Notes under the pieces: model-generated | Databases searched by the model: none | What the model saw: only the letters and a program-made list of their open reading frames with translations | What the model was told of the DNA's origin: nothing | Shown: positions 18,291 through 38,953 of the stretch, piece by piece | Numbering within the stretch: the stretch's first letter is position 1 | How the letters are laid out: every line of letters starts with the position of its first letter | Made by a program: the position numbers and the translations under genes | Assembly (NCBI RefSeq): GCF_900116425.1 | Contig: NZ_FPAS01000001.1 | Location: forward strand, 1,250,085-1,314,084 | Direction: 5' to 3' | DNA length: 64,000 nucleotides | Source: Lishizhenia tianjinensis | GTDB lineage: Bacteria > Bacteroidota > Bacteroidia > Flavobacteriales_D > Crocinitomicaceae

Positions 18291-19376
18291 ATGAGAAGAA
18301 TGTGCATAATGGTGGGTTTGTGTGCCTTAATTTTTAACACAAGCTGTACATCAAAAAAACATGAAGAAAAGGAGTTAGAAACGCACTTTATTGCCACTAA
18401 CCCAGTGAGAATGGACACCTCGATTACCGTAGATTATGTTTCGCAAATCCATGCGATTCAACACATTGAAATTAGAGCCCAAGAAAGAGGTTATTTAGAG
18501 AAGATTTATGTAGACGAAGGTCAGCACGTTAAAAAGGGCCAATTGTTATTTCAAATTATGCCGCGTTTGTATGAGGCTGAAATGCAAAAAGCAAAAGCCG
18601 AAGCTGAATTTGCAAACATAGAATATTTGAACACCAAACAACTGGCCGATAGCGAGGTGGTTTCCATGAATGAATTGGCCTTGGCAAAAGCAAAATTAGA
18701 CAAAGCAAACGCTGAATTAGCTCTGCGCAAAGTTCACTTAGACTTCACAGAAATAAGAGCTCCTTACGATGGAATTATAGACAAATTCCATGTTCGTTTG
18801 GGAAGCTTAATAGACGAAGGAGATTTGTTGACTTACCTCTCAGACAACAGTAAAATGTGGGTGTATTTCAACGTTCCAGAAGCCGTTTATTTGGATTATC
18901 AAACCAATATGGACAAAGACAGTTTCTTAGAAGTTGGATTGAAAATGGCCAACAATAAATTCTTCCCTCACAAAGGGATAGTTGAGACCATAGAAGCCGA
19001 CTTTAACAACGAAACAGGTAACATTCCGTTTAGAGCTACTTTCCCCAATCCAACCGGACTTTTACGTCACGGAGAAACCGGAAACATAGAAGTAAAAGAG
19101 CAGTATAACCAAGCCATTATCATCCCGCAAAAGGCAACCTTTGAAGTCTTGGATCAGAAGTATGTTTACGTGATAGATGCCAACAATGAGTTACAATCTA
19201 GAAAAATTGAAATCGAAGCAGAAATGCCTGATTTATATGTGGTAAAATCAGGGTTAGAGACTTCAGAAAAAATTCTTTTAGAAGGATTAAGAAACGTACG
19301 TGAACACGACAAAATTGAATATGAACTGCACGATCCTATGGCGGTTCTTTCTACCCTAAGATTACATGCAGAATAA
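18291..19376 (+). CDS. RND efflux periplasmic adaptor (membrane fusion protein)
   Basis: 361 residues. It links the inner-membrane pump to the outer-membrane channel. Family marks: the lipoyl half-motif GYLEKIYVDEGQHVKKGQLLF (residues about 62-82, shown in part as DEGQHVKKGQLLF), the coiled-coil hairpin AEMQKAKAEAEFANIEYLNT, the second lipoyl motif HLDFTEIRAPYDGIIDKFHV, and the barrel and membrane-proximal region with VIIPQKATFEVLDQKYVYVI (TIIPQKA-like). The N-terminus MRRMCIMVGLCALIFNTSC suggests lipidation at C19, although the lipobox is atypical. First gene of a three-gene efflux operon, 26 bases before the pump gene. Confidence 0.92.
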   Translation: MRRMCIMVGLCALIFNTSCTSKKHEEKELETHFIATNPVRMDTSITVDYVSQIHAIQHIEIRAQERGYLEKIYVDEGQHVKKGQLLFQIMPRLYEAEMQKAKAEAEFANIEYLNTKQLADSEVVSMNELALAKAKLDKANAELALRKVHLDFTEIRAPYDGIIDKFHVRLGSLIDEGDLLTYLSDNSKMWVYFNVPEAVYLDYQTNMDKDSFLEVGLKMANNKFFPHKGIVETIEADFNNETGNIPFRATFPNPTGLLRHGETGNIEVKEQYNQAIIIPQKATFEVLDQKYVYVIDANNELQSRKIEIEAEMPDLYVVKSGLETSEKILLEGLRNVREHDKIEYELHDPMAVLSTLRLHAE

Positions 19377-19402
19377 GAGTCATAAAAAAAAATAAAAATA
19401 CA

Positions 19403-22400
19403 ATGTTTAGTAAATTCATAAAAAGACCAGTACTGGCTATTGTGTTGTCTTTGGTGATTGTATTCGTAGGTACTTTATCTATCAATACGCTACCAAAATC
19501 ACAATTCCCAGATATTGCTCCTCCCATGGTAGTGGTTTACCTCTCTTACCCCGGAGCGAGTTCAACTGTACTTACCAATTCTGTATTAATTCCTTTGGAA
19601 CAAGCCATCAATGGTGTACCGGGAATGAAATACATGTTCTCTACCGCAGCCAGTTCAGGTGAGGCCAATATCCAAATCGTTTTCGAAAAAGGAAGTGACC
19701 CCAACCAAGCGGTGGTAAACATCAACAACAGGGTGCAGCAAATGAAAAACCGTTTACCGGCCATCGTTCAGTTGGAAGGATTAAGGGTGCAGCGTTTAAT
19801 GCCCAATATGTTGATGTATGTGAACCTGTATGGTACAGACACTGCAAATACAGATATGAAGTTCATCTTCAACTACGCCTACATCAACTTATTGCCAGAA
19901 CTACAACGTATCAACGGTGTGGGGAGAGCGCAAATTGTAGGGAGTAGACAGTACGCCATGCGTGTTTGGTTGAACCCAGACAGAATGCGTGCTTACGACA
20001 TCTCTACAGAAGAGGTGATGAAGGCTTTAGGTGAGCAAAGTATCATTGGTTCTCCAGGTCGTTTAGGTAGAGCAGATAGTAAACGTTCAGAATCTATAGA
20101 ATATGTGTTGACCTATCCGGGTCGTTACAACGAGGATGAAGAATACGAAAACGTGATTATACGTGCCAATGCAGAGGGTGAAGTCTTGAAATTAAAAGAT
20201 ATTGCCAAAGTTGAATTAGGATCAGAATACTACGATATCTACTCCAACAAAGATGAATTCCCATCTGCTGCCATAACGTTAAATCAAGCTTACGGTAGTA
20301 ACGCCATAGACGTCATTGAAAAAGTAAAAACAAAGTTGGAAGAAATGAAAGACGACTTCCCTCCAGGCGTTGAATACGAAATTTCTTACGACGTTTCTAA
20401 CTTCTTAGATGCATCCATTACAGAGGTATTACACACCTTAAGAGACGCCTTTATCTTGGTATCTTTGGTGGTATTTGTATTCTTGGGGGATTGGAGATCT
20501 ACATTGATTCCTGTACTCGCCGTTCCGGTATCCTTAATTGGTGCCTTCTTCGTAATTCAAGCCTTTGGATTAACCATCAACTTGATTACATTGTTTGCTT
20601 TGGTTTTGGCCATAGGTATTGTGGTAGATGATGCCATAGTGGTGGTAGAAGCGGTTCACGCCAAGATGGAAGAAAACCCACACCTCTCTCCTACCCAAGC
20701 TGTGAAATTGGTATTGAAAGAAATCTCTGGTGCCATCATCGCCATTACCTTGTTGATGACTTCTGTATTCGTTCCGGTCGCCTTTATGTCAGGACCTGTA
20801 GGTATCTTCTACCGTCAGTTCTCCATTACCATGGCCTCCTCTATTGTTATCTCTGGTTTGGTAGCCTTAACACTTACACCTGTATTGAGTGCCATGATTT
20901 TGAAAAACACGCATGGTCAAGAACGCAAAAGAAACCTATTAAATAGAGGTTTGGATGCTTTCAACAGAGGCTTCGATAAAATGACAGGAAGATATACTGG
21001 TATTCTTAAAAAGATTGTCAACCGTAAGGCAGTTACTTGGGGATTGTTATTGATCTTCGCTGTGGGTACGGTCGGTATTTCTAGAGTTCTTCCTTCTGGA
21101 TTTGTGCCATCGGAAGACCAAGGTATGATTTACGCGGTATTGCAAACTCCTCCAGGATCTACTTTGGAAAGAACCTACGCTATCTCAAGAGAATTACAAG
21201 AGGCTGCGGAAGAAATAGATGGTGTTCAATCTGTATCTGCTTTGGCTGGATATGAAATCTTGACACAAGGTCGTGGGTCGAACTCAGGTACCTGTATCAT
21301 CAACTTAAAACCTTGGGATAAAAGACACCACACGGTTCCTGAAATCATAGAGGAACTGGAAGAAAAAGTAAAAAACATCCCTGGGGCGAAAGTTGAATTC
21401 TTTGGTCCGCCCGCTGTACCGGGTTACGGTGCTGCCGGAGGTATTGCCTTGCAGTTATTGGACAAAAACTCGAGCATAGATTACAACCGTTTAAATGGGG
21501 TGACCCAAAAATTCATGGATGAATTGGAAAAGAGACCAGAAATTACAGGACTCTTCACCTTCTACAGAACGGATTATCCTCAATATGAACTAGAAATAGA
21601 CAACCAATTGGCCATGCAGAAAGGAGTTTCCATTGGTAAAGCCATGGACAACTTATCCATCTTGGTGGGAAGTACCTACGAACAAGGTTTCATTAAATAC
21701 GGACGTTTCTTTAAACTCTTCGTACAAGCCGATCCTTCGTTTAGAAAGTTACCTACAGATATCTTGAATTTCTATGTGAAAAACGACAAAGATGAAATGG
21801 TTCCTTACTCTGCTTTCATGAAAGTGAAAAAGACACAAGGTATCTATGAAATTAACAGATATAACATGTATACAACGGCTCCAATTCGTTGTAACCCAGC
21901 TCCGGGATATTCTTCAGGTGAAGTCATTGACGTAATTAAGGAAGTTGCAGCAGAAACTCTACCGAAAGGATATGATATAGACTGGGCTGGTTTATCGAAA
22001 GATGAATCTCGAAGAGGAAATGAAGCAGTATATATTTTCATCGTGGTATTGATCTTCGTTTACTTTGTATTGGCAGCGCAGTACGAGAGTTTCATTATTC
22101 CGTTCTCTGTAATTCTGTCCTTACCTGCAGGTATTTTCGGTTCCTTCCTTTTCATTAAAATGATGGGAGTTGCCAACGATATTTACGCTCAGGTTGCCCT
22201 GGTAATGTTGGTCGGCTTACTCGGTAAAAATGCCGTGTTAATTGTAGAATTTGCCATCCAGAAAAAACGCGAAGGTTACAGTGTATTTGATGCAGCCATA
22301 GCAGGTGCAAAAGAAAGGTTTAGACCTATTTTGATGACCTCTTTTGCCTTCATCGCCGGGTTAATTCCCTTGATTTTAGCCCATGGTCCGGGTGCAATTG

Positions 22401-22609
22401 GTAACATGACTATTGGAGCTTCTGCACTTGGAGGTATGTTGTTCGGTACTGTATTCGGTGTAATTATCGTACCTGGATTGTACTACATATTTGGAAAACT
22501 AGCAGAAAACAAAACTTTGATTAAAGACGAAGAAGACAATCCTTTATCTGAAGGATTTGTTGAATTCCAAAATCAATTTAACAACGACAGTAATGATGAA
22601 AACAAATAA
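19403..22609 (+). CDS. RND efflux pump, HAE1 (AcrB-like) family
   Basis: A 1068-residue inner-membrane proton antiporter that exports hydrophobic and amphiphilic compounds. The order of elements is as in AcrB: TM1 (FIKRPVLAIVLSLVIVFVGT), a large periplasmic porter domain, the TM4 relay GIVVDDAIVVVEAVHAKMEE with the two aspartates needed for proton transfer, then a repeat of the whole unit with a second TM block (VYIFIVVLIFVYFVLAAQYE, then GLLGKNAVLIVEFA with the lysine partner). Length equals the family norm. The stop overlaps the next gene's start by 14-17 bases. The drug range cannot be predicted. Confidence 0.95.
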   Translation: MFSKFIKRPVLAIVLSLVIVFVGTLSINTLPKSQFPDIAPPMVVVYLSYPGASSTVLTNSVLIPLEQAINGVPGMKYMFSTAASSGEANIQIVFEKGSDPNQAVVNINNRVQQMKNRLPAIVQLEGLRVQRLMPNMLMYVNLYGTDTANTDMKFIFNYAYINLLPELQRINGVGRAQIVGSRQYAMRVWLNPDRMRAYDISTEEVMKALGEQSIIGSPGRLGRADSKRSESIEYVLTYPGRYNEDEEYENVIIRANAEGEVLKLKDIAKVELGSEYYDIYSNKDEFPSAAITLNQAYGSNAIDVIEKVKTKLEEMKDDFPPGVEYEISYDVSNFLDASITEVLHTLRDAFILVSLVVFVFLGDWRSTLIPVLAVPVSLIGAFFVIQAFGLTINLITLFALVLAIGIVVDDAIVVVEAVHAKMEENPHLSPTQAVKLVLKEISGAIIAITLLMTSVFVPVAFMSGPVGIFYRQFSITMASSIVISGLVALTLTPVLSAMILKNTHGQERKRNLLNRGLDAFNRGFDKMTGRYTGILKKIVNRKAVTWGLLLIFAVGTVGISRVLPSGFVPSEDQGMIYAVLQTPPGSTLERTYAISRELQEAAEEIDGVQSVSALAGYEILTQGRGSNSGTCIINLKPWDKRHHTVPEIIEELEEKVKNIPGAKVEFFGPPAVPGYGAAGGIALQLLDKNSSIDYNRLNGVTQKFMDELEKRPEITGLFTFYRTDYPQYELEIDNQLAMQKGVSIGKAMDNLSILVGSTYEQGFIKYGRFFKLFVQADPSFRKLPTDILNFYVKNDKDEMVPYSAFMKVKKTQGIYEINRYNMYTTAPIRCNPAPGYSSGEVIDVIKEVAAETLPKGYDIDWAGLSKDESRRGNEAVYIFIVVLIFVYFVLAAQYESFIIPFSVILSLPAGIFGSFLFIKMMGVANDIYAQVALVMLVGLLGKNAVLIVEFAIQKKREGYSVFDAAIAGAKERFRPILMTSFAFIAGLIPLILAHGPGAIGNMTIGASALGGMLFGTVFGVIIVPGLYYIFGKLAENKTLIKDEEDNPLSEGFVEFQNQFNNDSNDENK

Positions 22610-24029
22610 AATTAAAATGCTAGTGGGAATAAGTCTTGTAGCGCTCCCTTTGGGAGCCTGCAAGACCCCAACCCTAGTAGAAAAAGAACTGAGAGAAGAT
22701 TTACCGCAAGAATTCGCTATGTCCAAAGACACCTTGAATTCTGGCACCATGAATTGGAAAGAATACTTTACAGATCCTTACTTGAACGCATTAATAGACA
22801 CAGCACTTCAAAACAACCAGGAGTTGAACATCATCTTGCAAGAAATACAGATGGCCAACAACGAAGTGAGTGCTAAAAAAGGAGAATACCTTCCTTCTGT
22901 TTCTTTAGGTGTAGGAGCCGCTGGTGAAAAAGTGGGACGTTACACCGTGCAAGGTGCATCTGAGGCTACAACTGATATAAAACCCGGAAGAGAAACACCT
23001 GAGGTAGTACCTGATTTTATGGTAGGTGGTTTCATGAATTGGGAAGTAGATATTTGGCACAAGTTGCGCAATGCTAAAAAAGCGCAAGTGATGCGTTACC
23101 TTTCTTCTATTGAAGGAAAGAATTTCATGGTAACGCACTTGATTGCTGAAATCGCAGATGCTTATTACGAGTTAATGGCCTTAGATAATCAATTGACCTT
23201 GATTCAACAAAACATTGCTATTCAGTCGGATGCCCTAGAAGTGGTTCGCCTACAAAAAAAGGCAGCCCGCGTTACAGAATTGGCTGTGCGTAGGTTTGAA
23301 GCTCAGGTAATGAAAACCAAAAGTTTGCAATATGATGTACAGCAGCAAATCATAGAAAAGGAGAACGAAATCAATTATTTGTTGGGACGTTACCCACAGC
23401 CTATTGCTAGAAATTCTGTCAACTTTAACACGCTTGTACCAGATACCATACATGCAGGTATCCCTTCTCAATTGATGGCTAACAGACCAGACATTCGACA
23501 AGCAGAGTTGGAACTTGAGGCCGCGAACTTAGATGTAAAAGTAGCACGGGCCAATTTTTATCCTTCGCTCACCTTGAGGGCAGGATTAGGTTTACAATCC
23601 TTCAACCCTGCTTACTTGATTTCTACGCCAGAGTCTATGCTTTTTAATTTGATAGGAGATGCCAGTGCGCCCTTGATTAACAGAAAGGCAATTGCGGCTA
23701 CCTACAAAAATGCAAATGCTAAACAAATCCAAGCGATTTACAAGTACGAGCAAACGGTTTTGAAGGCCTATTTACAGGTAGTGAATCAACTTTCTAGTTT
23801 ACACAATTTAGAAATGAGTTATGCCTTGCAAGCCAACCGTGTAGATGCTTTAACACAGTCTATTCAAATCTCCAATGATTTGTTTAAATCCGCCAGAGCC
23901 GATTACATGGAAGTATTGTTAACGCAAAGAGATGCGTTGGAATCTAAATTCGAATTGATAGAAACTAAGAAAAATCAATTGCATGCCTTTGTACAAATTT
24001 ACAAAGCCCTCGGTGGAGGTTGGAATTAG
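22596..24029 (+). CDS. Outer-membrane efflux channel (TolC/OprM family lipoprotein)
   Basis: 477 residues from the ATG at 22596, with the ATG at 22593 equally possible. It has a lipoprotein signal (MKTNKIKMLVGISLVALPLGAC, lipobox LGAC), then the duplicated OEP repeat: NWKEYFTDPYLNALIDTALQ, NNQELNIILQEIQMANNEVS, PDFMVGGFMNWEVDIWHKLR and, in the second half, MANRPDIRQAELELEAANLD and VARANFYPSLTLRAG. This is the NodT/OprM pattern of channels paired with RND pumps. The start lies inside the end of the pump gene (14-base overlap), so translation is coupled. A terminator follows the stop. Confidence 0.93.
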   Translation: MKTNKIKMLVGISLVALPLGACKTPTLVEKELREDLPQEFAMSKDTLNSGTMNWKEYFTDPYLNALIDTALQNNQELNIILQEIQMANNEVSAKKGEYLPSVSLGVGAAGEKVGRYTVQGASEATTDIKPGRETPEVVPDFMVGGFMNWEVDIWHKLRNAKKAQVMRYLSSIEGKNFMVTHLIAEIADAYYELMALDNQLTLIQQNIAIQSDALEVVRLQKKAARVTELAVRRFEAQVMKTKSLQYDVQQQIIEKENEINYLLGRYPQPIARNSVNFNTLVPDTIHAGIPSQLMANRPDIRQAELELEAANLDVKVARANFYPSLTLRAGLGLQSFNPAYLISTPESMLFNLIGDASAPLINRKAIAATYKNANAKQIQAIYKYEQTVLKAYLQVVNQLSSLHNLEMSYALQANRVDALTQSIQISNDLFKSARADYMEVLLTQRDALESKFELIETKKNQLHAFVQIYKALGGGWN

Positions 24030-27037: not shown

Positions 27038-30000
27038 ATGAGGAATAATTACAAATTTATTATTGTTTTTATTTTATTAGGTTTTCTTGGTTTAGGTGCT
27101 AGAGCACAATCTACTTGTGATAGTGTAGTACCTAGTTTCAGCGTGGACTTGACATCTTCACCAACAGCTACATGGACCAGCCCCTCTGTTGTCAGAGCGG
27201 GAACATGTTGTGGAACATCTAATAATTGTATTGAATTTATTTTGTACCTGCACCCAAATGCAGTGTCAATTAACTTCACCATTCCGGTGGGAGCGGTGGC
27301 GAGTGGTTCTATGTTTTATCAATTAAACTGTAGTCCCGAAGTCCCCGTCGGTGAACCCATTTGTATTGATGGTCCAGGGCCTCACATAATTACATTTTGT
27401 AAGCCCGGGGATAATCAAAACACTTATGCGATTGAATCGATATCGGCTCCAATTATTGGACCTGATATAACGGTCGCTTCGGGTTGTATCGATTACTTGC
27501 ATGCTCAGTATTACGACGAGTCAACTGTAACCTGGACCTCTTTGGCTCCGGGTGCCTCTGGTGATTACGATACCTTACTGAGTTGTAATGCAGGTTGTGA
27601 TACTACGTATTTAACTTCTTCAAATGTGAATAATCCAAATGTCATAGATTATTACGTTTGTGGATATGATGCCGCGGGATGTATTGATTCCGCCATCTGT
27701 GATACCATCACGGCCACACTTTTGGATTTACACGATGTAAGTATTTCGGCTGCAGACACCATTTTGTGTTCCTATGAGCCAAGCACAACTTTAACCGTAA
27801 ACAGTTCTGGAGGAACTGGTAACTTCACCTATCTATGGTCCACCGGAGATACCACTACAAGTATAACCGTTGGGCCTGGAATTTATTACGTAGATGTTTT
27901 GGACACCTCAGGCTGTTCAACAAATTCGGACACCCTGGAGATTATTCAACTTCCCGAAGTTGTCGTCACAGCCGGACCGGATGTAGACATATGTAATCAA
28001 TTTCAAGCCAATATACCCTTAACCAGTTCCGTTCTAAACGCAACTGGTGTTTCTTGGTCTGGAGGTAACGGTAGTTTCCCTTTAGGTAATACCATTTTGA
28101 ACGCTGCGTATTTACCAACACCTGGAGAATTACTTCTCAACGAAATAGAGCTATACGTAGCCTCTACAGGAAATCAAGGTTGTAATGCAGATGTGGATAC
28201 TTTAACTATTAACCTCTTCCCTTTTCAGGACGCTGTTAGTATAAGTACAACAGATGTTAATTGTTACAACGGTACGGATGGAACTTCTACAACCAGTGTT
28301 ACAGGAACTCAGTCACCTTGGAATTTTAATTTAAACAATAGTCTTTCCAACTCAACAGGATTATTCACCAACCTTGGGGCTGGAAACTATTTGATATCTG
28401 TTGTTGACAATCTAGGATGTACCTTGGATACGAGTTTTATTATAGAACAACCTGATACTTTAATCATGCTGGTGAGTAACCAAACCAATGTAAATTGTTT
28501 CGGTAACACTACAGGTACCGCCACCGCTACTGTAACTGGAGGAACAGCTCCTTACACGTATTCATGGAACACATCTCCTGTACAAACTTCCTCAACAGCT
28601 TTAGGTTTAGCCGCAGGAACGTATACATGTACAGTAACAGATGCTAACAATTGTACAGAAACCATAGATGTAACCATCACCCAACCTGCAGCTCCTTTGG
28701 CTGTTTCTATAGCTTCCATTTCAAATGTAAATTGTTTTGGAGATGCTACAGGTTCTGCTACGGTGAATGCACAAGGAGGTACTGCACCGTACAGTTATTC
28801 TTGGAATACTACTCCGGCACAAACAACTGCCACAGCTTCTGGTTTAACCGCAGGATCTTATACTTGTATAGTTACGGATGCAAACGGATGTATAGCTGTA
28901 ATTTCTACAACTATAACTCAACCTTCGGCACCCTTAAATGCAAGTATTTCCAATACGGTACCTGTAGATTGTTTTGGAGCACTAACTGGATCTGCTACCG
29001 CTACTGCTCAAGGAGGAACACCTAACTACAGTTACACATGGAATACCTCTCCAACGCAAAATACGGCTACAGCAACGGGTCTACCAGCAGGAACTTACAC
29101 TTGTACAATTACCGATGAAAACGGTTGTACAGATACAACAATGGTTACCATTACCCAACCCGCTGCTGCGTTAACAGCATCTATTGCCAGTTCAACTAAT
29201 GTAAATTGTTTTGGAGATGCCACAGGCTCTGCCACCGCAAGTGCTCAAAATGGAACTCCAGGTTACTCCTACTCTTGGAGTACAAGCCCTGTACAGACTA
29301 CAGCTACAGCGAGTGGATTAACAGCAGGGACTTATACATGTACTGTAACAGATGCCAACGGATGTACCGCAATGGTTAATGCTGTAATTTCTCAACCTAC
29401 TGCACCTTTGGCATTAAACTTAAGTTCATTGGTAGATGTTAATTGTTTTGGTGAGGCAACAGGATCTGCAACAGTGGTTGCGTCCAACGGAACACCAGGT
29501 TACACTTATTCATGGAATACTATCCCCGTTCAGACCACGGCAATGGCTACCAATTTAACTGCGGGAACTTATACTTGTACCGTAACCGATAACAATGGTT
29601 GTACAGAAACAATAGACGCAACTATTTTACAACCTTCAGCGGCATTAGCCGTGAATATTAATGCACAAACCAATGTAAATTGTTTCGGGGATGCGTCAGG
29701 TTCAGCTACAGCTGTTGCTTCATTTGGAACACCAGGATATAGTTATTCTTGGAACACCTCCCCTATTCAAACATCGGCTACAGCTTCAGGATTGGTTGCA
29801 GGAACCTACACGTGTACAGTAACCGACGCCTTTGGATGTACAGAAAGTGCCTCAGTTACCATCACACAACCTGCTGCGCCTTTAGATGCAAGTGTTGCAT
29901 CTTATATACCTGTTGGTTGTTTTGGTGATGCTACAGGTTCAGCTACAACTACAGTTCAAGGAGGTACACCAGGTTATTCATATTCATGGAATACGTCTCC

Positions 30001-33000
30001 GGTTCAAAATTCAATTACGGCAACAAGTTTAGCTGCGGGATCATACGTATGTACCGTAACAGACAACTTAGGTTGTATTGATACAGCTAAGGTTACCATC
30101 ACACAACCGATGGCAGCCTTGTCTTTAAATCTAAGTTCAACAACAAACGTTAACTGTTTTGGTGATGCAACTGGATCAGCTACTGTAGTTGCTCAGAATG
30201 GTACTCCCGGATATAGTTACGCATGGAATACAACACCTGTTCAAACATCGGCTACTGCCACTGGTTTAGTTGCGGGTACCTATACATGTACCGTGACGGA
30301 TGCCAATGGATGTACAGAAGATATTAATGTAAACATTACTCAACCTGCTGCGCCATTGAGTTTAACGGTAAACAGTACGACCAACGTTAGTTGTTATGGA
30401 AATGCTACGGGATCAGCTACTATTGCGGTAACAGGTGGAACACCAGGTTATGCCTATGCATGGAACACAGTACCCGTACAAAATTCGGCAACGGCAAATG
30501 GTCTAGCTGCCGGAACTTATACTTGCACAGTTACAGATGTAAGGGGTTGTTCGGCAACGATTTCAGTTACTATCACCCAGCCTACAGCAGCATTGGCTGC
30601 TAGTATTACATCTACCACTCCTGTAGATTGTTTTGGAGCGGCAACAGGTTCTGCAACGGCTTCTGCTCAATACGGCACACCCGGCTATGCATATACATGG
30701 AATACATCTCCAGTTCAAAATACGGCTACAGCTGATAATCTATTGGCTGGAAATTATATTTGTACAGTTACAGACATTTTAGGTTGTATAGATACGGTTC
30801 ACGTTACTATTACACAACCTGCAGCTCCACTTGCTCTTTCAATAGCAAGTTCAACCGATATCGCTTGTTACGGTGACGCCAATGGAAGTATAACGGTTGC
30901 TGCAGCAAATGGTACACCAGGTTACACCTATTCATGGAACACAACCCCTGTTCAAACCTCCGCAACAGCTGTCAACCTAACAGCGGGAACATATTCTTGT
31001 ACCGTAACAGATGCCAACGGATGTGTAAGTAGTATTAACGCTACCCTTTCACAACCAACCGCTCCTTTACAAGTAAACTTAAACACTGTAAACGATGTGA
31101 ATTGTTATGGTGATGCTACAGGTTCAATTGCTGTGATTGCAAGTAATGGTACACCAGGGTACAACTACTCATGGAATACCTCTCCTGTTCAAACTTCCGC
31201 TACAGCAACAGGTTTAACGGCGGGTACATATACGTGTACAGTGACAGATGCCAACGGATGTACAACCAGTATTTCAGCAACTGTTACTCAGCCTTCAGGT
31301 GCATTAACTGCAAACATCTCTTCAATTTCTAATGTAAATTGTTTTGGTGATGCAACAGGTTCTGCAACTGTAACGGCTTCTTTCGGAACACCAGGTTACA
31401 CTTATTCTTGGAACACTACTCCGGTTCAAACCAATGCCACAGCAACTGGTTTAGCTGCGGGTTCATACACCTGTACAGTAACAGATGCCTTGGGTTGTAC
31501 TACAACAACATCAGTTACCATTACTCAACCACTTGCTCCTATTAGTTTATCCCTTGTTTCTACAACAGCAGTTGGATGTTACGGTGATGCTACTGGATCT
31601 GCAACCATAGCAAGTACTGGAGGAACTCCAACCTATAGCTATGCTTGGAACACGACTCCAGTTCAGACATCAGCTACAGCTACTGGTTTAGCTGCAGGAA
31701 CTTATACCTGTACAGTAACAGATAACTTAGGTTGTACAGCAACAATTACCGTTACTATTACCCAACCCGCGGCTCCTTTAGGAGTTTCAATAGCATCTAT
31801 TTCTGATGTTAATTGTTTTGGTGATGCAACAGGGTCTGCAACCGTAAATGCTTTTGACGGAACGCCAGGATACACGTATTCTTGGAACACCACTCCAGTA
31901 CAAACTTCAGCTACGGCTACTGGTTTGGCTGCTGGGACTTACACATGTACAGTAACAGATGCAAATGGTTGTACGGCCTCAGTGAGCGCAACAGTTACGC
32001 AACCAGCTGCTCCTATTGCTTTAAGTATTAGTGCCAACACACCCGTTTCTTGTTATGGATTTGCCAATGGATCGGCAACCGTTGCGAGTTCAGGTGGTAC
32101 ACCAGGGTACACTTATGCGTGGAACACAACTCCAGTTCAAACATCAGCTACGGCTTCTGGTTTAGCTGCGGGAACTTATACGTGTACGGTAACTGACATC
32201 TTAGGTTGTTCAGAAACGATCTCTGTTACCATTACTCAACCCGCTGCAGCTTTATCATTAACAGTAAACCCACAAATTAACGTGGCATGTTATGGTGATG
32301 CGACAGGTGCGGCAAATGTTGTGGCTTCAAATGGTACACCAGGATATACCTATGCTTGGAACACTACCCCTATTCAAACTACGGCAAATGCAACTGGTTT
32401 GACAGCGGGAACATATACATGTACAGTAACGGATGCCAACGGATGTGTGGAAACAATTTCAGTTACCATCACTCAACCTGCAGCTCCTTTAACCCTATCA
32501 GTATTTGCAACGTCAAATGTTGACTGTTATGGAGACGCAACAGGTGCGGCAACCATTCAAGCTTCGAATGGTACACCAGGTTACACTTATTCATGGAATA
32601 CTACCCCTGTACAAACTTCAGCTACAGCTTCTGGTTTAGCTGCAGGAACTTATACCTGTACAGTAACAGATGCCAATGGTTGTGTGGAAGATATCAACGT
32701 AAACATCACTCAGCCTGCTGCTCCTATTAGTTTGAGTATAGGTGCTATTTCTAATGTAGATTGTTACGGAGATGCAACGGGTTCTGCTTCAGTAATTGCC
32801 AATGATGGTACTCCTGGGTATACTTACTCTTGGAATACTACACCTGTCCAAACTTCAGCTACAGCTACAAACTTAGCGGCTGGGACTTACACGTGTACGG
32901 TAACAGATGCACTTGGTTGTGTTGAAACGATAACAGCTACAGTCACTCAACCAGCTGGTGCTTTAACGGCAAGCGTTGCTTCCATCTCTAATGTAAATTG

Positions 33001-36000
33001 TTTTGGTGATGCAACAGGTTCTGCAACTGTAACGGCTTCTTTCGGAACACCAGGTTACACTTATTCTTGGAACACTACCCCTGTTCAAACCAATGCCACA
33101 GCAACTGGTTTAGCTGCAGGTACATATACATGTACAGTAACGGATGCTTTAGGATGTACAACAACGACTACTGCGAATGTTACTCAACCCTCTGCTCCAT
33201 TATCACTTTCTATAGCTTCAACAACAAATGTTGGATGTTATGGTGATGCAACGGGTGCTGCTACCATTTCAGCTTCAGGAGGTACTCCAGCTTACACTTA
33301 TTCCTGGAACACAACTCCAGTTCAAACTGGGGCTACGGCGACAGGTTTAGCAGCTGGAAATTATATTTGTACAGTAACAGATAACTTAGGTTGTACAGCA
33401 ACAATTACCGTTACTATTGCGCAACCCGCGGCTCCTTTAGGAGTTTCAATAGCATCTATTTCTGATGTTAATTGTTTTGGTGATGCAACAGGGTCTGCAA
33501 CCGTAAGTGCTTTTGACGGAACGCCAGGATACACATATTCTTGGAACACCACTCCAGTACAAACTTCAGCTACGGCTACAGGATTGGCTGCTGGGACTTA
33601 CACATGTACAGTAACGGATGCAAATGGTTGTACGGCCTCAGTGAGCGCAACAGTTACACAACCAGCTGCTCCGATTGCTTTAAGCATTAGTGCCAACACA
33701 CCCGTTTCTTGTTATGGATTTGCCAATGGATCGGCAACCGTTGCGAGTACAGGTGGTACACCAGGGTACACTTATGCGTGGAACACTACTCCAGTTCAAA
33801 CAACAGCTACGGCTTCTGGTTTAGCTGCGGGAACTTATACGTGTACGGTAACTGACATCTTAGGATGTTCTGAAACGATCTCAGTTACGATTACTCAACC
33901 CGCTGCAGCTTTATCTTTAACAGTTAACCCACAAATTAACGTGGCATGTTATGGTGATGCGACAGGTGCGGCAAATGTTGTAGCTTCAAATGGTACACCA
34001 GGATATACCTATGCTTGGAACACTACCCCTATTCAAACTACGGCAAATGCAACTGGTTTGGCAGCGGGAACATATACTTGTACAGTAACGGATGCCAACG
34101 GATGTGTGGAAACAATTTCAGTTACCATCACTCAACCTGCAGCCCCTTTAACCCTGTCAGTATTTGCAACATCAAATGTTGACTGTTATGGAGACGCAAC
34201 AGGTGCGGCAACTATTCAAGCTTCGAATGGTACACCAGGTTACACTTATTCATGGAACACTACCCCTGTACAAACTTCAGCCACAGCTTCTGGTTTAGCT
34301 GCAGGAACTTATACCTGTACAGTAACTGATGCCAATGGTTGTGTGGAAGATATCAACGTAAACATCACTCAGCCTGCTGCACCATTAGCAGTGAGTATTA
34401 GTTCTGTAACACCCGTTAATTGTTATGGAGACGCTACTGGCTCAGCTTCGGTTCAGGCATCAAATGGAACTCCGGGTTACACTTACTCATGGAATACTTC
34501 TCCAGCTCAATATACAGCTACAGCAACAGGTTTGCCTGCTGGAATTTATACTTGTACAGTAACCGATGCATTAGGTTGTTCGGAAGCCATAATGGTAAGT
34601 ATTACTCAACCAACTGCCCCTTTAAATATCACTTTAGCTTCCAAAACGAATGTTGATTGTTATGGAAACATGACAGGTGCAGCTAGTGTAAACGTAACAG
34701 GTGGAACTGCTGGTTACAGTTATTCATGGAACACAACTCCCGTTCAAACTACGGCAACAGCTACAGGTTTGGCTGCAGGGTCATATACATGTACGGTTAC
34801 AGACGCTGTAGGATGTACAGCAACTTTCAGTGTTACCATCAATGAACCTTCTGCTCCCCTAGCCTTGAACATTATCGCAAGCTCAGATATCTTGTGTTAT
34901 GGTGATGCATCAGGTGCAGCTACAGTTCAAGCTTCCTTTGGAACGCCAGGTTATACCTATTCATGGAATACCACTCCAATACAAACTACATCTACAGCTT
35001 CTGGATTAACTGCAGGAACTTATACGTGTACAGTTACGGATGCGAACGGATGTACAGAATTTATCAATGTAAATCTGTCTCAACCTGCAGCTCCATTAGC
35101 TGTAAGTATTAGTGGAATTACACATATTGATTGTTACGGTGATGCTACCGGTTCAGCTTCTGTAACGGCCTTTGACGGTACACCTGGATACACTTATTCA
35201 TGGAATACTTCACCAGTTCAAACTACAGCAACCGCTACAGGTTTAACTGCCGGAACCTACACTTGTACAGTAATTGATGCCAATGGTTGTTCTGAAACCG
35301 TAGACGTAACTATCACTCAACCTGCAGCACCTTTGAATGTAATCATAGCTGGGAAAACAAATGTTTTATGTTATGGTGATGCAACGGGTACTGCTACCCT
35401 ATTGGTACAAGGTGGAACTCCAAACTATACTTATGCATGGAATACCTCTCCTGTTCAAACTACGGCTACAGCTACAGGATTGACTGCGGGAACATACACA
35501 TGTACTATCACAGATGCCAATGGATGTACGACTACGCGCACGGTGATTATTCAACAACCAAATGCACCGATGAACTTCCAAATAGACACCACAGTAGCTG
35601 TATTGTGTTACGATGGTAATAATGGTTCTATAAGCGTTACAGGTAATGGTGGGGTTCCACCCTACAGTTACCATTGGTCGCACAATCCTAACTTAAATAC
35701 AGGATATGCTACCAACCTCACAGCAGGTAATTATGAATGTATCGTTGAGGATAATAATGGATGTACAGTTACACTACAAACCATTGTTCAACAACCAAAC
35801 GCTCCACTTACTGCAAGCATTGACACGGTAAGTGATGTAAATTGTTACGGAGGTTTTGATGGATGGGCAACTGTACAAGCAACGGGTGGAACGGCAGGTT
35901 ATACCTATGTTTGGAATACCATTCCTCAACAATATGGAAATACAGCCGTTAATTTAGCGGAAGGTATTTACACGTGTACCGTAACAGACGCCAATGGATG

Positions 36001-38953
36001 TTCAACTGGAATTGAAGTTACAGTTAACCAACCCAACTCGGCATTAAACGTATCAATTTCTAATATCGTTAATGTTTACTGTTTTAACGATACAACTGGT
36101 AGTGCCACTGTTTCGGTAGAAGGAGGAACTCCTAACTATACCTATGCATGGAATACTTCTCCTGTTCAAACTACTGCAACAGCAGTAAACCTGGCCATAG
36201 GAACTTATACATGTGTGGTTACGGATGCCAATGGATGTACAGATTCTATCATGGTTACCATTTCACAACCCATAAATGCCTTAAACGCAAACATCTTGGT
36301 AAAAACGGATGTAAGTTGTTACGGAGGTAATAATGGATCTGCAACAGTAATGGGAACGGGTGGTACGCCTGGCTATACTTATGAATGGAATACAACACCT
36401 GTTCAATATTCAAATACAGCTACAGGTTTAACTGCGGGTACTTACAGCTGCACAGTTACCGATGCCAGTGGTTGTACCTTCCTGAAGGAGGTTACTATTA
36501 CAGAACCATCACAAGCTTTAAACGTGGCAACTTTGAACATAGTAGATGTTAGTTGTTTCAATGGATCTGATGGTAGTATCATGTTAAATGCAACAGGTGG
36601 AACACCAGGATACAGTTATTTCTGGAACACGAACCCTGTACAAAATAGTAACATCGCAGTTAACTTAAGTGCAGGAACCTATACTTGTACAGTTACAGAT
36701 AATAACGGTTGTCAAACACTTGTTACGGAAACTATAGTTGAGCCTTCCGCTCCCCTTTCACTTTCAATTAACGATTTTAACGATGTGAATTGTTTTGGAG
36801 ACCAAACAGGTTCTGCTATCGCTATTGCAGCTGGAGGTACACCAAATTACAGTTACAGTTGGACCACAGCTCCCGTACAAAATTCTGATTCAGCTACGAA
36901 TTTAGGAGCAGGTACCTACACTTGTAATGTATATGATGCACAAGGATGTTTCGCATCAGCTTCAGTTACTATTTCACAGCCAACTCAAGCCATCGCATTG
37001 AGTATAGATACAATTGTGAATGTAGCATGTTATGGAGATAATACGGGAAGTGCGAGTATCAACGCTATAGGTGGAACGCCAGGTTACACGTATGCATGGA
37101 ACACAGCTCCAGTGCAAACTACAGCTACAGCTTCAGGGTTAGCTGCAGGAACTTATACTTGCACGGTTACAGATAGTTTAGGTTGTTCTGAAACCATTAG
37201 CGTAACCATCGAACAACCGCAACAAGCACTCGGAATTAATTTAATTACGCAACAAGACGTTAACTGTTTTGGTGATGCAAGTGGATCTCTTCAAGTAAAC
37301 GCTTTTGGAGGTACACCGAACTATACATGTATTTGGGATAATGACAGTACACAAATGGCTCCATCCTACACGAATCTTCCTGTAGGTACGTATCAAGTAT
37401 TGGTTACAGATGCGAATGGATGTATCGATTCTACGAGTTATACAATTACACAACCCGCAGCACCTTTAGCGCTAAACTTGGTGCAAGTTGATCCTATATT
37501 GTGTAATGGAGATGCGAACGGATCTATTACTGTAGATGCCGTTGGAGGAACTCCAATTTACGCTTACACATGGTTAAACAGTTCGAGTTTAGTTGGTGCT
37601 AACATCAGTGGATTAGATGCACAGAACTACATAGGAATTGTAACTGACGTAAACGGATGTACAGATACCTTAGAAGTTCCTTTAGATGATCCTGAATTGT
37701 TAGAAGCTACCATAACTGCCGATACAGCTCTTTGTTTTGGAGCTGCGATCGATGTGGTTGTTGCACCTGTTGGTGGTACAGGAAATTACAACTATTCATG
37801 GACACCTAACTTATCAACTGGTAGTCTCTTGAATGATGTTCCTCAAGCCGACCAAGTATACACATGTACAGTAACAGATGCAAACAACTGTAATGTAACG
37901 GTTGCCACAACGGTAATTGTTCATTATACAGACCCAGATGACATTACGGCAATTTCCGATCAATTAACGATTTGTGAATTTGACAGTGTGATGTTGAGCT
38001 ACAGTTTTGCCTCAAGTACAATAGGTTTAGACATTGAGTGGGAGCACTGCCCTACTTGTGATCCAGATCAACCTGTATTTGCACAAATTGTAAGCGATAC
38101 TATGTTTGTGATCTCAGCAACTAACCAATGTAGTCAAACAGTATACGATACCGTTTATGTAAACTACCATGAATTACCAGTGGTTGATATTGCTTTAAAC
38201 AGTGATACTATCTGTGAGTTTAACACAGTTTCATTTATTAACTATGGAGACAATAACCCATCTTGGGATTACGCATGGGATTTCGGAGACGGAAACACTT
38301 CTACAGATCCTTCTCCTGAAAACTTCTATGATTACAATGGTTCTTACAATGTGAGTTTACTTGTAACCAATGAATTCGGATGTACAAGTTTAGACACAGC
38401 CTCTGCAACGATAGTGGTAAATCCACAAGCCATAGCAAGCTTTATTATAGATCCGGGATCTGTAACAACGATGGATGATCCCGTATTTAACTTTACGAAT
38501 ACAGCTATACATGCTAATGAATTCATTTGGATATTTGGTGATGGAGACTACTCTTTCCAAGAACATCCAACGCACATGTACGAATACTATGGTGAGTACA
38601 ACGTGCTACAGATTGCTAACAATGAGTTCAATTGTCCAGACACACTTGCCAAACCAATAACCATAAAACCATCACATGGTGTGTATGTTCCAAATGCATT
38701 TACTCCAGATGGGGATAAGTACAACAATACCTTCTTCCCAGAAACTTACGGATTGGCAAAAGATGGTTACCACATGCAAATCTTTAACCGATGGGGTGAA
38801 GTGATTTTTGAATCTTTCGAAGAACAAATTGGTTGGGATGGTAAATACCAAGAAACTCCTGTAAAAGAAGGTGTTTACACTTGGGTGATTTACTACAAAA
38901 CACTCGATAATCAGGTACATAAAATTGTTGGCCATGTATCTGTATTGAGATAA
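27038..38953 (+). CDS. Giant SprB-repeat surface protein with gliding-motility type C-terminal domain
   Basis: 3971 residues from the ATG at 27038. Order: signal peptide (MRNNYKFIIVFILLGFLGLG then ARAQ); a cysteine-rich N-terminal domain (to about 200); an Ig-like region (to about 400); about 40 SprB-type units of 79 residues; a degenerate unit; two PKD domains (WDFGDGNTSTDPSPENFYDY and WIFGDGDYSFQEHPTHMYEY); and a T9SS type B domain VYVPNAFTPDGDKYNNTFFP to the end, as in gliding-motility-associated proteins. Each unit begins with VNCFGDATGSATV-like sequence and ends with TCTVTDANGCT, so there are about three cysteines per unit. By family it is a filamentous adhesin exported by T9SS, moved by the gliding machinery or fixed on the surface. 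No sprF/sprC/sprD-type partner is adjacent. It has its own promoter. Confidence 0.93.
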   Translation: MRNNYKFIIVFILLGFLGLGARAQSTCDSVVPSFSVDLTSSPTATWTSPSVVRAGTCCGTSNNCIEFILYLHPNAVSINFTIPVGAVASGSMFYQLNCSPEVPVGEPICIDGPGPHIITFCKPGDNQNTYAIESISAPIIGPDITVASGCIDYLHAQYYDESTVTWTSLAPGASGDYDTLLSCNAGCDTTYLTSSNVNNPNVIDYYVCGYDAAGCIDSAICDTITATLLDLHDVSISAADTILCSYEPSTTLTVNSSGGTGNFTYLWSTGDTTTSITVGPGIYYVDVLDTSGCSTNSDTLEIIQLPEVVVTAGPDVDICNQFQANIPLTSSVLNATGVSWSGGNGSFPLGNTILNAAYLPTPGELLLNEIELYVASTGNQGCNADVDTLTINLFPFQDAVSISTTDVNCYNGTDGTSTTSVTGTQSPWNFNLNNSLSNSTGLFTNLGAGNYLISVVDNLGCTLDTSFIIEQPDTLIMLVSNQTNVNCFGNTTGTATATVTGGTAPYTYSWNTSPVQTSSTALGLAAGTYTCTVTDANNCTETIDVTITQPAAPLAVSIASISNVNCFGDATGSATVNAQGGTAPYSYSWNTTPAQTTATASGLTAGSYTCIVTDANGCIAVISTTITQPSAPLNASISNTVPVDCFGALTGSATATAQGGTPNYSYTWNTSPTQNTATATGLPAGTYTCTITDENGCTDTTMVTITQPAAALTASIASSTNVNCFGDATGSATASAQNGTPGYSYSWSTSPVQTTATASGLTAGTYTCTVTDANGCTAMVNAVISQPTAPLALNLSSLVDVNCFGEATGSATVVASNGTPGYTYSWNTIPVQTTAMATNLTAGTYTCTVTDNNGCTETIDATILQPSAALAVNINAQTNVNCFGDASGSATAVASFGTPGYSYSWNTSPIQTSATASGLVAGTYTCTVTDAFGCTESASVTITQPAAPLDASVASYIPVGCFGDATGSATTTVQGGTPGYSYSWNTSPVQNSITATSLAAGSYVCTVTDNLGCIDTAKVTITQPMAALSLNLSSTTNVNCFGDATGSATVVAQNGTPGYSYAWNTTPVQTSATATGLVAGTYTCTVTDANGCTEDINVNITQPAAPLSLTVNSTTNVSCYGNATGSATIAVTGGTPGYAYAWNTVPVQNSATANGLAAGTYTCTVTDVRGCSATISVTITQPTAALAASITSTTPVDCFGAATGSATASAQYGTPGYAYTWNTSPVQNTATADNLLAGNYICTVTDILGCIDTVHVTITQPAAPLALSIASSTDIACYGDANGSITVAAANGTPGYTYSWNTTPVQTSATAVNLTAGTYSCTVTDANGCVSSINATLSQPTAPLQVNLNTVNDVNCYGDATGSIAVIASNGTPGYNYSWNTSPVQTSATATGLTAGTYTCTVTDANGCTTSISATVTQPSGALTANISSISNVNCFGDATGSATVTASFGTPGYTYSWNTTPVQTNATATGLAAGSYTCTVTDALGCTTTTSVTITQPLAPISLSLVSTTAVGCYGDATGSATIASTGGTPTYSYAWNTTPVQTSATATGLAAGTYTCTVTDNLGCTATITVTITQPAAPLGVSIASISDVNCFGDATGSATVNAFDGTPGYTYSWNTTPVQTSATATGLAAGTYTCTVTDANGCTASVSATVTQPAAPIALSISANTPVSCYGFANGSATVASSGGTPGYTYAWNTTPVQTSATASGLAAGTYTCTVTDILGCSETISVTITQPAAALSLTVNPQINVACYGDATGAANVVASNGTPGYTYAWNTTPIQTTANATGLTAGTYTCTVTDANGCVETISVTITQPAAPLTLSVFATSNVDCYGDATGAATIQASNGTPGYTYSWNTTPVQTSATASGLAAGTYTCTVTDANGCVEDINVNITQPAAPISLSIGAISNVDCYGDATGSASVIANDGTPGYTYSWNTTPVQTSATATNLAAGTYTCTVTDALGCVETITATVTQPAGALTASVASISNVNCFGDATGSATVTASFGTPGYTYSWNTTPVQTNATATGLAAGTYTCTVTDALGCTTTTTANVTQPSAPLSLSIASTTNVGCYGDATGAATISASGGTPAYTYSWNTTPVQTGATATGLAAGNYICTVTDNLGCTATITVTIAQPAAPLGVSIASISDVNCFGDATGSATVSAFDGTPGYTYSWNTTPVQTSATATGLAAGTYTCTVTDANGCTASVSATVTQPAAPIALSISANTPVSCYGFANGSATVASTGGTPGYTYAWNTTPVQTTATASGLAAGTYTCTVTDILGCSETISVTITQPAAALSLTVNPQINVACYGDATGAANVVASNGTPGYTYAWNTTPIQTTANATGLAAGTYTCTVTDANGCVETISVTITQPAAPLTLSVFATSNVDCYGDATGAATIQASNGTPGYTYSWNTTPVQTSATASGLAAGTYTCTVTDANGCVEDINVNITQPAAPLAVSISSVTPVNCYGDATGSASVQASNGTPGYTYSWNTSPAQYTATATGLPAGIYTCTVTDALGCSEAIMVSITQPTAPLNITLASKTNVDCYGNMTGAASVNVTGGTAGYSYSWNTTPVQTTATATGLAAGSYTCTVTDAVGCTATFSVTINEPSAPLALNIIASSDILCYGDASGAATVQASFGTPGYTYSWNTTPIQTTSTASGLTAGTYTCTVTDANGCTEFINVNLSQPAAPLAVSISGITHIDCYGDATGSASVTAFDGTPGYTYSWNTSPVQTTATATGLTAGTYTCTVIDANGCSETVDVTITQPAAPLNVIIAGKTNVLCYGDATGTATLLVQGGTPNYTYAWNTSPVQTTATATGLTAGTYTCTITDANGCTTTRTVIIQQPNAPMNFQIDTTVAVLCYDGNNGSISVTGNGGVPPYSYHWSHNPNLNTGYATNLTAGNYECIVEDNNGCTVTLQTIVQQPNAPLTASIDTVSDVNCYGGFDGWATVQATGGTAGYTYVWNTIPQQYGNTAVNLAEGIYTCTVTDANGCSTGIEVTVNQPNSALNVSISNIVNVYCFNDTTGSATVSVEGGTPNYTYAWNTSPVQTTATAVNLAIGTYTCVVTDANGCTDSIMVTISQPINALNANILVKTDVSCYGGNNGSATVMGTGGTPGYTYEWNTTPVQYSNTATGLTAGTYSCTVTDASGCTFLKEVTITEPSQALNVATLNIVDVSCFNGSDGSIMLNATGGTPGYSYFWNTNPVQNSNIAVNLSAGTYTCTVTDNNGCQTLVTETIVEPSAPLSLSINDFNDVNCFGDQTGSAIAIAAGGTPNYSYSWTTAPVQNSDSATNLGAGTYTCNVYDAQGCFASASVTISQPTQAIALSIDTIVNVACYGDNTGSASINAIGGTPGYTYAWNTAPVQTTATASGLAAGTYTCTVTDSLGCSETISVTIEQPQQALGINLITQQDVNCFGDASGSLQVNAFGGTPNYTCIWDNDSTQMAPSYTNLPVGTYQVLVTDANGCIDSTSYTITQPAAPLALNLVQVDPILCNGDANGSITVDAVGGTPIYAYTWLNSSSLVGANISGLDAQNYIGIVTDVNGCTDTLEVPLDDPELLEATITADTALCFGAAIDVVVAPVGGTGNYNYSWTPNLSTGSLLNDVPQADQVYTCTVTDANNCNVTVATTVIVHYTDPDDITAISDQLTICEFDSVMLSYSFASSTIGLDIEWEHCPTCDPDQPVFAQIVSDTMFVISATNQCSQTVYDTVYVNYHELPVVDIALNSDTICEFNTVSFINYGDNNPSWDYAWDFGDGNTSTDPSPENFYDYNGSYNVSLLVTNEFGCTSLDTASATIVVNPQAIASFIIDPGSVTTMDDPVFNFTNTAIHANEFIWIFGDGDYSFQEHPTHMYEYYGEYNVLQIANNEFNCPDTLAKPITIKPSHGVYVPNAFTPDGDKYNNTFFPETYGLAKDGYHMQIFNRWGEVIFESFEEQIGWDGKYQETPVKEGVYTWVIYYKTLDNQVHKIVGHVSVLR
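31709..32721 (+). repeat. Duplicated 1-kb block within the SprB array, left copy
   Basis: Matches 33368-34380 at an offset of exactly 1659 bases (seven units) with about 30 base differences counted by eye. Covers units beginning with ISDVNCFGD, NTPVSCYGF, QINVACYGD and TSNVDCYGD in the same order in both copies. Confidence 0.85.
33368..34380 (+). repeat. Duplicated 1-kb block within the SprB array, right copy
   Basis: Second copy of 31709-32721. A further shorter match, 31325-31470 against 32984-33129, has the same 1659-base offset, which shows that the duplicated tract was originally longer. Confidence 0.85.

Follow-up and report, generated by a model that had tools for sequence, protein, structure and literature searches.

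The gene at 27038–38953 of the window, i.e. of the whole 64,000-nucleotide stretch from Lishizhenia tianjinensis that was analysed, most probably encodes a T9SS-exported fibrillar adhesin, in which about 40 tandem SprB-type units form a stalk and selection has probably kept their length; with selection on unit length included, we put the probability of this reading at roughly 0.7. Its parts are as follows.

27038–38953, + strand: gene of a putative T9SS type B fibrillar adhesin, ~40 SprB/Ig-like units, 3971 aa from the ATG
27038–27106, + strand: probable signal peptide, the first 23 residues, read from the translation
27107–27712, + strand: cysteine-rich N-terminal domain of ~200 aa, delimited by an alignment of 14 sequences
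28262–28495, + strand: array unit 1 (78 aa), placed by the spacing of the anchor cysteine
28496–37732, + strand: units 2–40, with anchor steps of 237 bp or 79 aa and a unit 40 of 77 aa
31700–32720, + strand: best-preserved part of the first copy of a block duplication (units 14–19)
33359–34379, + strand: best-preserved part of the second copy (units 21–26), at an offset of +1659
37733–38686, + strand: diverged last Ig-like unit and PKD_4 domains (match to PF18911)
38687–38953, + strand: T9SS type B C-terminal sorting domain (CTD; CHU_C/TIGR04131, matches to PF13585 and TIGR04131)

A single open frame runs to 38953 on the + strand. Its alternative start is TTG 26984; ATG 27038 is a plausible start, since a signal-peptide-like stretch follows right after it. 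Judged by its profile matches, the product is a member of the SprB repeat family and a T9SS type B substrate. Thus, the Pfam search found SprB (PF13573) at 1086.8 bits against a cut-off of 28, in 40 stretches of the frame, so that there is no sign of the far fewer or absent units that would speak against an SprB array. PKD_4 (PF18911) scored 62.2 bits in two stretches, the best at residues 3731–3810, and the C-terminus matched both CHU_C (PF13585; 49.7 bits against a cut-off of 27, residues 3902–3978) and TIGR04131 of NCBIfam (44.5 bits against 35, residues 3902–3988). Two other Pfam matches, BiPBP_C and Poxvirus_B22R, were rejected as repeat-driven noise, because no single stretch passes alone. 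Upstream of the gene, 18291–24029 carries an RND efflux set consisting of an HlyD-type membrane fusion protein, an AcrB-type pump and an outer membrane efflux protein.

The sequence-only reading had counted 38 periods of 237 bases from 28496 to 37502, and this is borne out step by step and not just in sum. The anchor cysteine of units 2–40 lies at 28496 + 237n (n = 0–38), and each of the 38 steps equals 79 aa; the edges of the array are irregular, with 78 aa from unit 1 to unit 2 and 77 aa from unit 40 to the next, diverged cysteine. The accompanying statement that there is no net insertion or deletion within units is supported for units 2–39, where no sign of indels was seen. The 39 stretches of 79 aa align with no gap column; because they were cut at the period, their equal length carries no information, and what counts is the lack of gaps. 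For this reason, the anchors placed by the profile are the stronger evidence: internal segment lengths are identical in 39 of 39 units and the linker is constant in 38 of 39. Compensating indels left no trace in either the gap-free alignment or the profile anchors. The repeat finder recovered the array in part, as TRF covers only 31151–35518 (18.4 copies, 67% matches); with units 42–97% identical in DNA, it picks up only the central ~18 copies.

Measured in 1120 units from other arrays, the core segments for the most part hardly vary in length, and length variation is mainly confined to two places. The loop W24–L38 has 12 residues in 534 of these units, 14 in 241 and 13 in 222, and the linker between P64 and the following C1 has 14 in 526, 15 in 477 and 16 in 79. 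In the window the loop measures 14 in all 39 units, and the linker 16 in 38 of the 39. Among the 59 arrays with at least eight measured units, five, including the window, hold both loop and linker at ≥95%, and two have 16 as the modal linker. A fixed linker would keep a constant step from domain to domain, and this step may be the reason for the fixation. Units 2–39 show no indels at W24–L38 or P64–C1next, and it is probably selection that has eliminated them there.

To place the array within its family, SprB-type arrays were taken from the window, from 11 further stretches of the same genome, from 80 named loci and from 20 stretches belonging to relatives, which makes 112 sources in all. These gave 132 frames with SprB matches and 86 runs of at least six units; 66 arrays with at least nine anchors were tested, by relating parsimony changes of unit length to substitutions on a FastTree tree of the units. 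Outside the window the commonest of 1312 spacings are 76 (431), 77 (271) and 75 (213), with a range of 65–107, and 1250 of them are spread over 74–82 aa. A fixed pitch is thus no general need of SprB stalks, and an extra length constraint is not general within the family. The other 65 arrays, pooled, show 506 length changes in 47,952 substitutions. Untrimmed, the window array ranks 4 of 66: its 938 substitutions come with 2 changes, one at each end, where 9.9 would be expected (P = 0.003). When the end units are dropped from every array, it has 0 in 772 against 8.2 expected (P = 2.6e-4, rank 1 of 66). Compared with arrays of similar mean identity (0.50–0.75), P is 0.0098 untrimmed (11 arrays) and 0.001 with the ends dropped (10 arrays).

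These values have to be read with the facts that a few genes contribute two arrays to the set of 66 and that the window array was chosen post hoc, for looking exact. Indeed, it is quite possible, if short of probable, that the strictness represents the tail of an ordinary distribution, brought to attention by the choice of this case in the sequence-only reading and without functional meaning. The untrimmed data agree with such a tail: the array ranks fourth, and correction for 66 arrays raises P from 0.003 to 0.20, or from 0.0098 to 0.65 against arrays of similar identity. Furthermore, four of the 66 arrays lie at ≤0.0025 changes per substitution, and one of them, L021, belongs to the same genome. 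The data with the ends dropped point the other way, for the array then ranks first and the corrected P is 0.017, or 0.07 against arrays of similar identity; the run of 38 identical spacings is, moreover, nearly double the next-longest among the 66 arrays (21). As for the claim of strong selection on unit length, what stands is a rate of change below that of the family (P between 2.6e-4 and 0.0098), and what does not stand is significance throughout after the 66-fold correction. Given these equal-treatment P values, and an array, L140, that is equally extreme (2 changes in 1195 substitutions untrimmed, P = 3.1e-4), an extra constraint is suggested but not secure. We regard a length constraint beyond the family norm as likely, though not proven, from the comparison of these sequences.

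Several other arrays are strict as well, with 18 of 18 spacings at 76 aa in L021 (C9 of the same genome), 24 of 26 at 76 aa in L140 and 21 of 23 at 77 aa in L065. A further array of the genome, L022 on C3, is cut by the contig end and near-exact, with 8 of 9 spacings at 76 aa. The tails of L021 and L022 are near-identical and resemble type A sorting domains, judging by eye from their motif. L140, whose strict 76-aa array has 27 anchors, comes from a record that bears an alphaproteobacterial label, Rickettsiales bacterium NP5; a mislabelled record or a mixed bin seems likelier than transfer. In Solitalea longa (L139), Chryseobacterium balustinum (L087) and Luteirhabdus pelagi (L090), the regularity is of a higher order: successive units switch between 74 and 76 aa or between 75 and 76 aa, or the series of lengths recurs after six units. 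This is a sign of growth by blocks of at least two units.

A low indel rate of the genome as a whole is disfavoured as the cause of the strictness by a paralogue with the same N-terminal domain in the same genome (L023, C8:1-6500). Its spacings are loose, at 74–79 aa, and with only seven units it stood outside the 66 arrays. Most SprB-type arrays thus tolerate length changes in loop or linker and a few hardly do, and, with strict and loose arrays in one genome, whether the pitch of the stalk matters is a testable question. In the open-access literature, no paper was found on what sets SprB unit length or on length-regular SprB arrays.

Recent copying of a single unit, or gene conversion, could by itself also leave an exact period behind. 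Copying has certainly occurred, in the form of a seven-unit block duplication (1659 bp), in which units 14–19 match units 21–26 at 0.84–0.97 DNA identity and 0.72–0.90 identity at fourfold sites. The remainder of the array looks different. Mean pairwise identity of the units is 59% in protein and 61% in DNA (DNA range 42–97%), and outside the block duplication they are 42–77% identical in DNA. At fourfold sites, all unit pairs taken together have an identity of 0.40, where independent sites would give 0.35; leaving out the six block pairs lowers it to 0.39. The DNA identity of neighbours at offset 1 is 0.629 against 0.612 overall. With fourfold sites near saturation and neighbours barely closer than distant units, most of the array is old as judged by its synonymous sites, and it has kept its unit length. 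In addition, arrays of similar identity do show indels, 32 per 3562 substitutions. Recent copying is therefore a highly improbable source of the period. We propose instead that the stalk grew by gain of whole units, one seven-unit block duplication being still visible, and that most units would then have diverged to near-synonymous saturation.

The expectation of about three cysteines per unit proved accurate, exactly three being present in each of 39 units. Two of them, C1 and C53, are family-wide, occurring together in 1440 of 1609 units outside the window, with a weak same-unit association (Fisher P 0.066). The third, C45 (column 42; motif TYTC), is present in 37 of the 40 window units, namely units 2–38; unit 39 has valine at this position and Y22 replaced by cysteine, and unit 40 has glycine there. 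Outside the window, 1334 of 1426 units have V, L, I or A at position 45 and 54 have cysteine, 27 of these in one array, L086 of Chitinophaga barathri. No regular partner of C45 within the unit was found, and in 53 of 66 cases it comes without another extra cysteine. Since it occupies a position where the residue is usually hydrophobic, C45 is probably a buried free thiol. In other units, cysteines at columns 4/36, 9/31 and 41/55 tend to co-occur, which suggests that extra cysteines in the SprB-unit fold often occur as pairs.

The other end of interest is the N-terminus. In an alignment with 13 other proteins, the ~200 residues after the probable signal peptide reach a mean column identity of 49%, and several cysteines are invariant. 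No match to this domain (27107–27712) was found in PDB sequences, in NCBIfam or, above noise, in Pfam, nor were homologues found in viral contigs; structure prediction with three sequences reached a pLDDT of 37.8 only. In a sample of 295 genomes from the class, its own among them, 42 carry the domain, and these cover 30 of 156 genera. For closer comparison, the earlier loci were joined by 20 of the matches listed, selected because their frames are complete. In these, 36 frames (35 distinct genes, as L119 and L197 appear to be one) have the domain N-terminally, ahead of 1–42 SprB matches, the window gene having the most. In seven of the 36, the locus ends within the frame. Among the other 29, 24 end in a type B-like tail by the motif N-x-W/Y-G, three (L201, L204, L210) have the variant D-R/H-W-G, L143 has neither, and L203 has ambiguous bases. 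Within the short flanks available, no synteny was seen to be conserved, since the NIF3, Zn-ribbon and aminotransferase genes and the upstream membrane ORF had no matches near the N-terminal homologues. The cysteine-rich domain is probably the distal, binding tip of the protein. It is a concrete candidate for the part by which a group of T9SS adhesins binds, a part for which Pfam and NCBIfam have no family.

How would such a protein reach the surface? Of the T9SS core, the genome encodes SprA (2452 bits) and GldK (552.9 bits), both above their cut-offs, and of the gliding track GldJ (506.2 bits, summed in frame, against 458.2). We infer a surface location: the protein would be exported by Sec, pass the T9SS led by its type B CTD, and be held at the outer membrane by a shuttle of the PorP/SprF type whose gene lies elsewhere, with the C-terminal PKD domains and CTD serving its carriage through the T9SS and its anchoring. 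No PorP_SprF gene was found within the window, the nearest on the contig being at C2:1226190-1227972; directly downstream of the adhesin gene are DUF34/NIF3 and then a zinc-ribbon gene. Since 35 type B CTD matches stand against 9 PorP/SprF matches in the genome, shuttles are likely to be shared. A precedent is given in an excerpt of PMC12618676, where three orphan type B substrates of Flavobacterium johnsoniae are served by one orphan shuttle. Among relatives with the N-terminal domain, 16 downstream ORFs were listed and 10 tested, of which eight are PorP_SprF and two PD40/TPR proteins; some relatives, including the closest (L142), have no such ORF in reach of the locus.

The same evidence bears on whether the protein could be a moving gliding adhesin, functionally an SprB that drags the cell along while travelling on a PorP/SprF protein linked to the GldK/GldJ track. 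It has the repeat and CTD type of SprB, and, with GldJ, GldK and SprA encoded, movement may be possible. Moreover, the excerpt of PMC12618676 on F. johnsoniae reports that a Fjoh_4750 fusion followed SprB-like helical tracks and that, with an SprB fusion to the Fjoh_1123 CTD, part of the foci did so. However, the excerpt also places sprF directly downstream of F. johnsoniae sprB, and at least eight relatives have a PorP_SprF gene in that position, unlike the window gene; and the imbalance of 35 type B CTDs to 9 PorP/SprF proteins means that many such proteins share shuttles or manage without. We thus consider a gliding role rather unlikely. The name SprB, which the sequence-only reading gave to this surface protein, is justified for the repeat family (PF13573) and does not extend to orthology to the gliding adhesin; with no adjoining sprF, the label stays with the repeats.

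The adhesin reading, in which the array is a stalk, finds a concrete shape in the predicted fold. A model of three consecutive units, made with 111 aligned triples (pLDDT 98, pTM 0.83), has six strands per unit. The sequence-only reading had thought of a solenoid or a filament whose pitch matters. The solenoid is rejected on the basis of the model, which consists of separate Ig-like domains of six strands each that match Ig/Fn3 chains; together with the PDB matches, it argues for a chain of Ig-like domains. An Ig domain is about 3.5–4.5 nm long, so 40 units would make a stalk of ~140–180 nm, which would hold the N-terminal domain away from the cell. Foldseek gave GhpA of Aureispira as the best PDB match of the three units (9flw, E 1.5e-8, TMq 0.51); most of the matches ranked after it are tandem Ig proteins from eukaryotes. 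In VIA-align, 9flw reached Z 11.2 over 223 residues at 5.6 Å and 9flx superposed at 3.8 Å over 219 residues, with other GhpA fragments at Z 8.1–9.6 (GhpA rmsd range 3.8–5.6 Å); unrelated Ig chains scored 10.1 (phage RB49 Hoc) and ~9 (NCAM, fibronectin, titin). On the predicted model, the nearness to GhpA in particular therefore appears modest.

These matches are relevant to an improbable but instructive alternative, namely a GhpA-like oligomeric hook or fibre, in which several chains assemble laterally and a fixed period would hold neighbouring chains in register, unit by unit. GhpA is the best structural match over three units in both programs, and a review describes grappling hooks as heptamers formed by a protein that the T9SS secretes. 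A constraint absent from most SprB arrays would also find an explanation in register. Nevertheless, the sequence similarity is weak (profile E 0.029), and a tandem Ig arrangement is no sign of oligomers, as the scores of Hoc, NCAM, fibronectin and titin illustrate. A stronger version is a long shot: it would have unit lengths locked by a register-dependent, multi-chain GhpA-like fibre that is tipped by an unnamed family of cysteine-rich binding domains, carried on SprB stalks of varied length in many Bacteroidia.

We return to the single-chain fibrillar adhesin as the preferred reading and compare it with known systems, for which further sources, each in excerpt, are PMC9870892, PMC7073777, PMC9210967, PMC11205867 and PMC8201768. 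Few surface proteins of Bacteroidota are longer than those of the SprB type. The F. johnsoniae SprB likewise has SprB repeats, as the family name says, and, according to PMC12618676, a type B CTD; it too is very long, with 6497 aa against ~3970 aa here, and is compared by its published description. The excerpt of PMC12635249 quotes ~200 nm for its length, near the ~140–180 nm predicted for the present stalk. GhpA of Aureispira sp. CCB-QB1 (deposited sequence 5898 aa) shares tandem Ig-like domains and a similar three-domain arrangement, one that is common to unrelated Ig chains, and the profile search showed weak sequence similarity in two stretches. As they are described in the excerpted sources, fibrillar adhesins and Periscope Proteins likewise combine a distal N-terminal domain, a stalk of repeated folded domains and a C-terminal anchor, and the length of the stalk differs between relatives here too, as it does in those proteins. 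Two differences emerge from the same descriptions. First, Periscope stalks consist of highly similar repeats, whereas the units here average 59% protein identity, adjacent ones 62%, and only the seven-unit block is close. Second, the anchor is a T9SS type B CTD, unlike that of Periscope Proteins. Thus, the kind of protein is already known, and what is unusual is its uniform unit length and an N-terminal domain absent from the family libraries searched.
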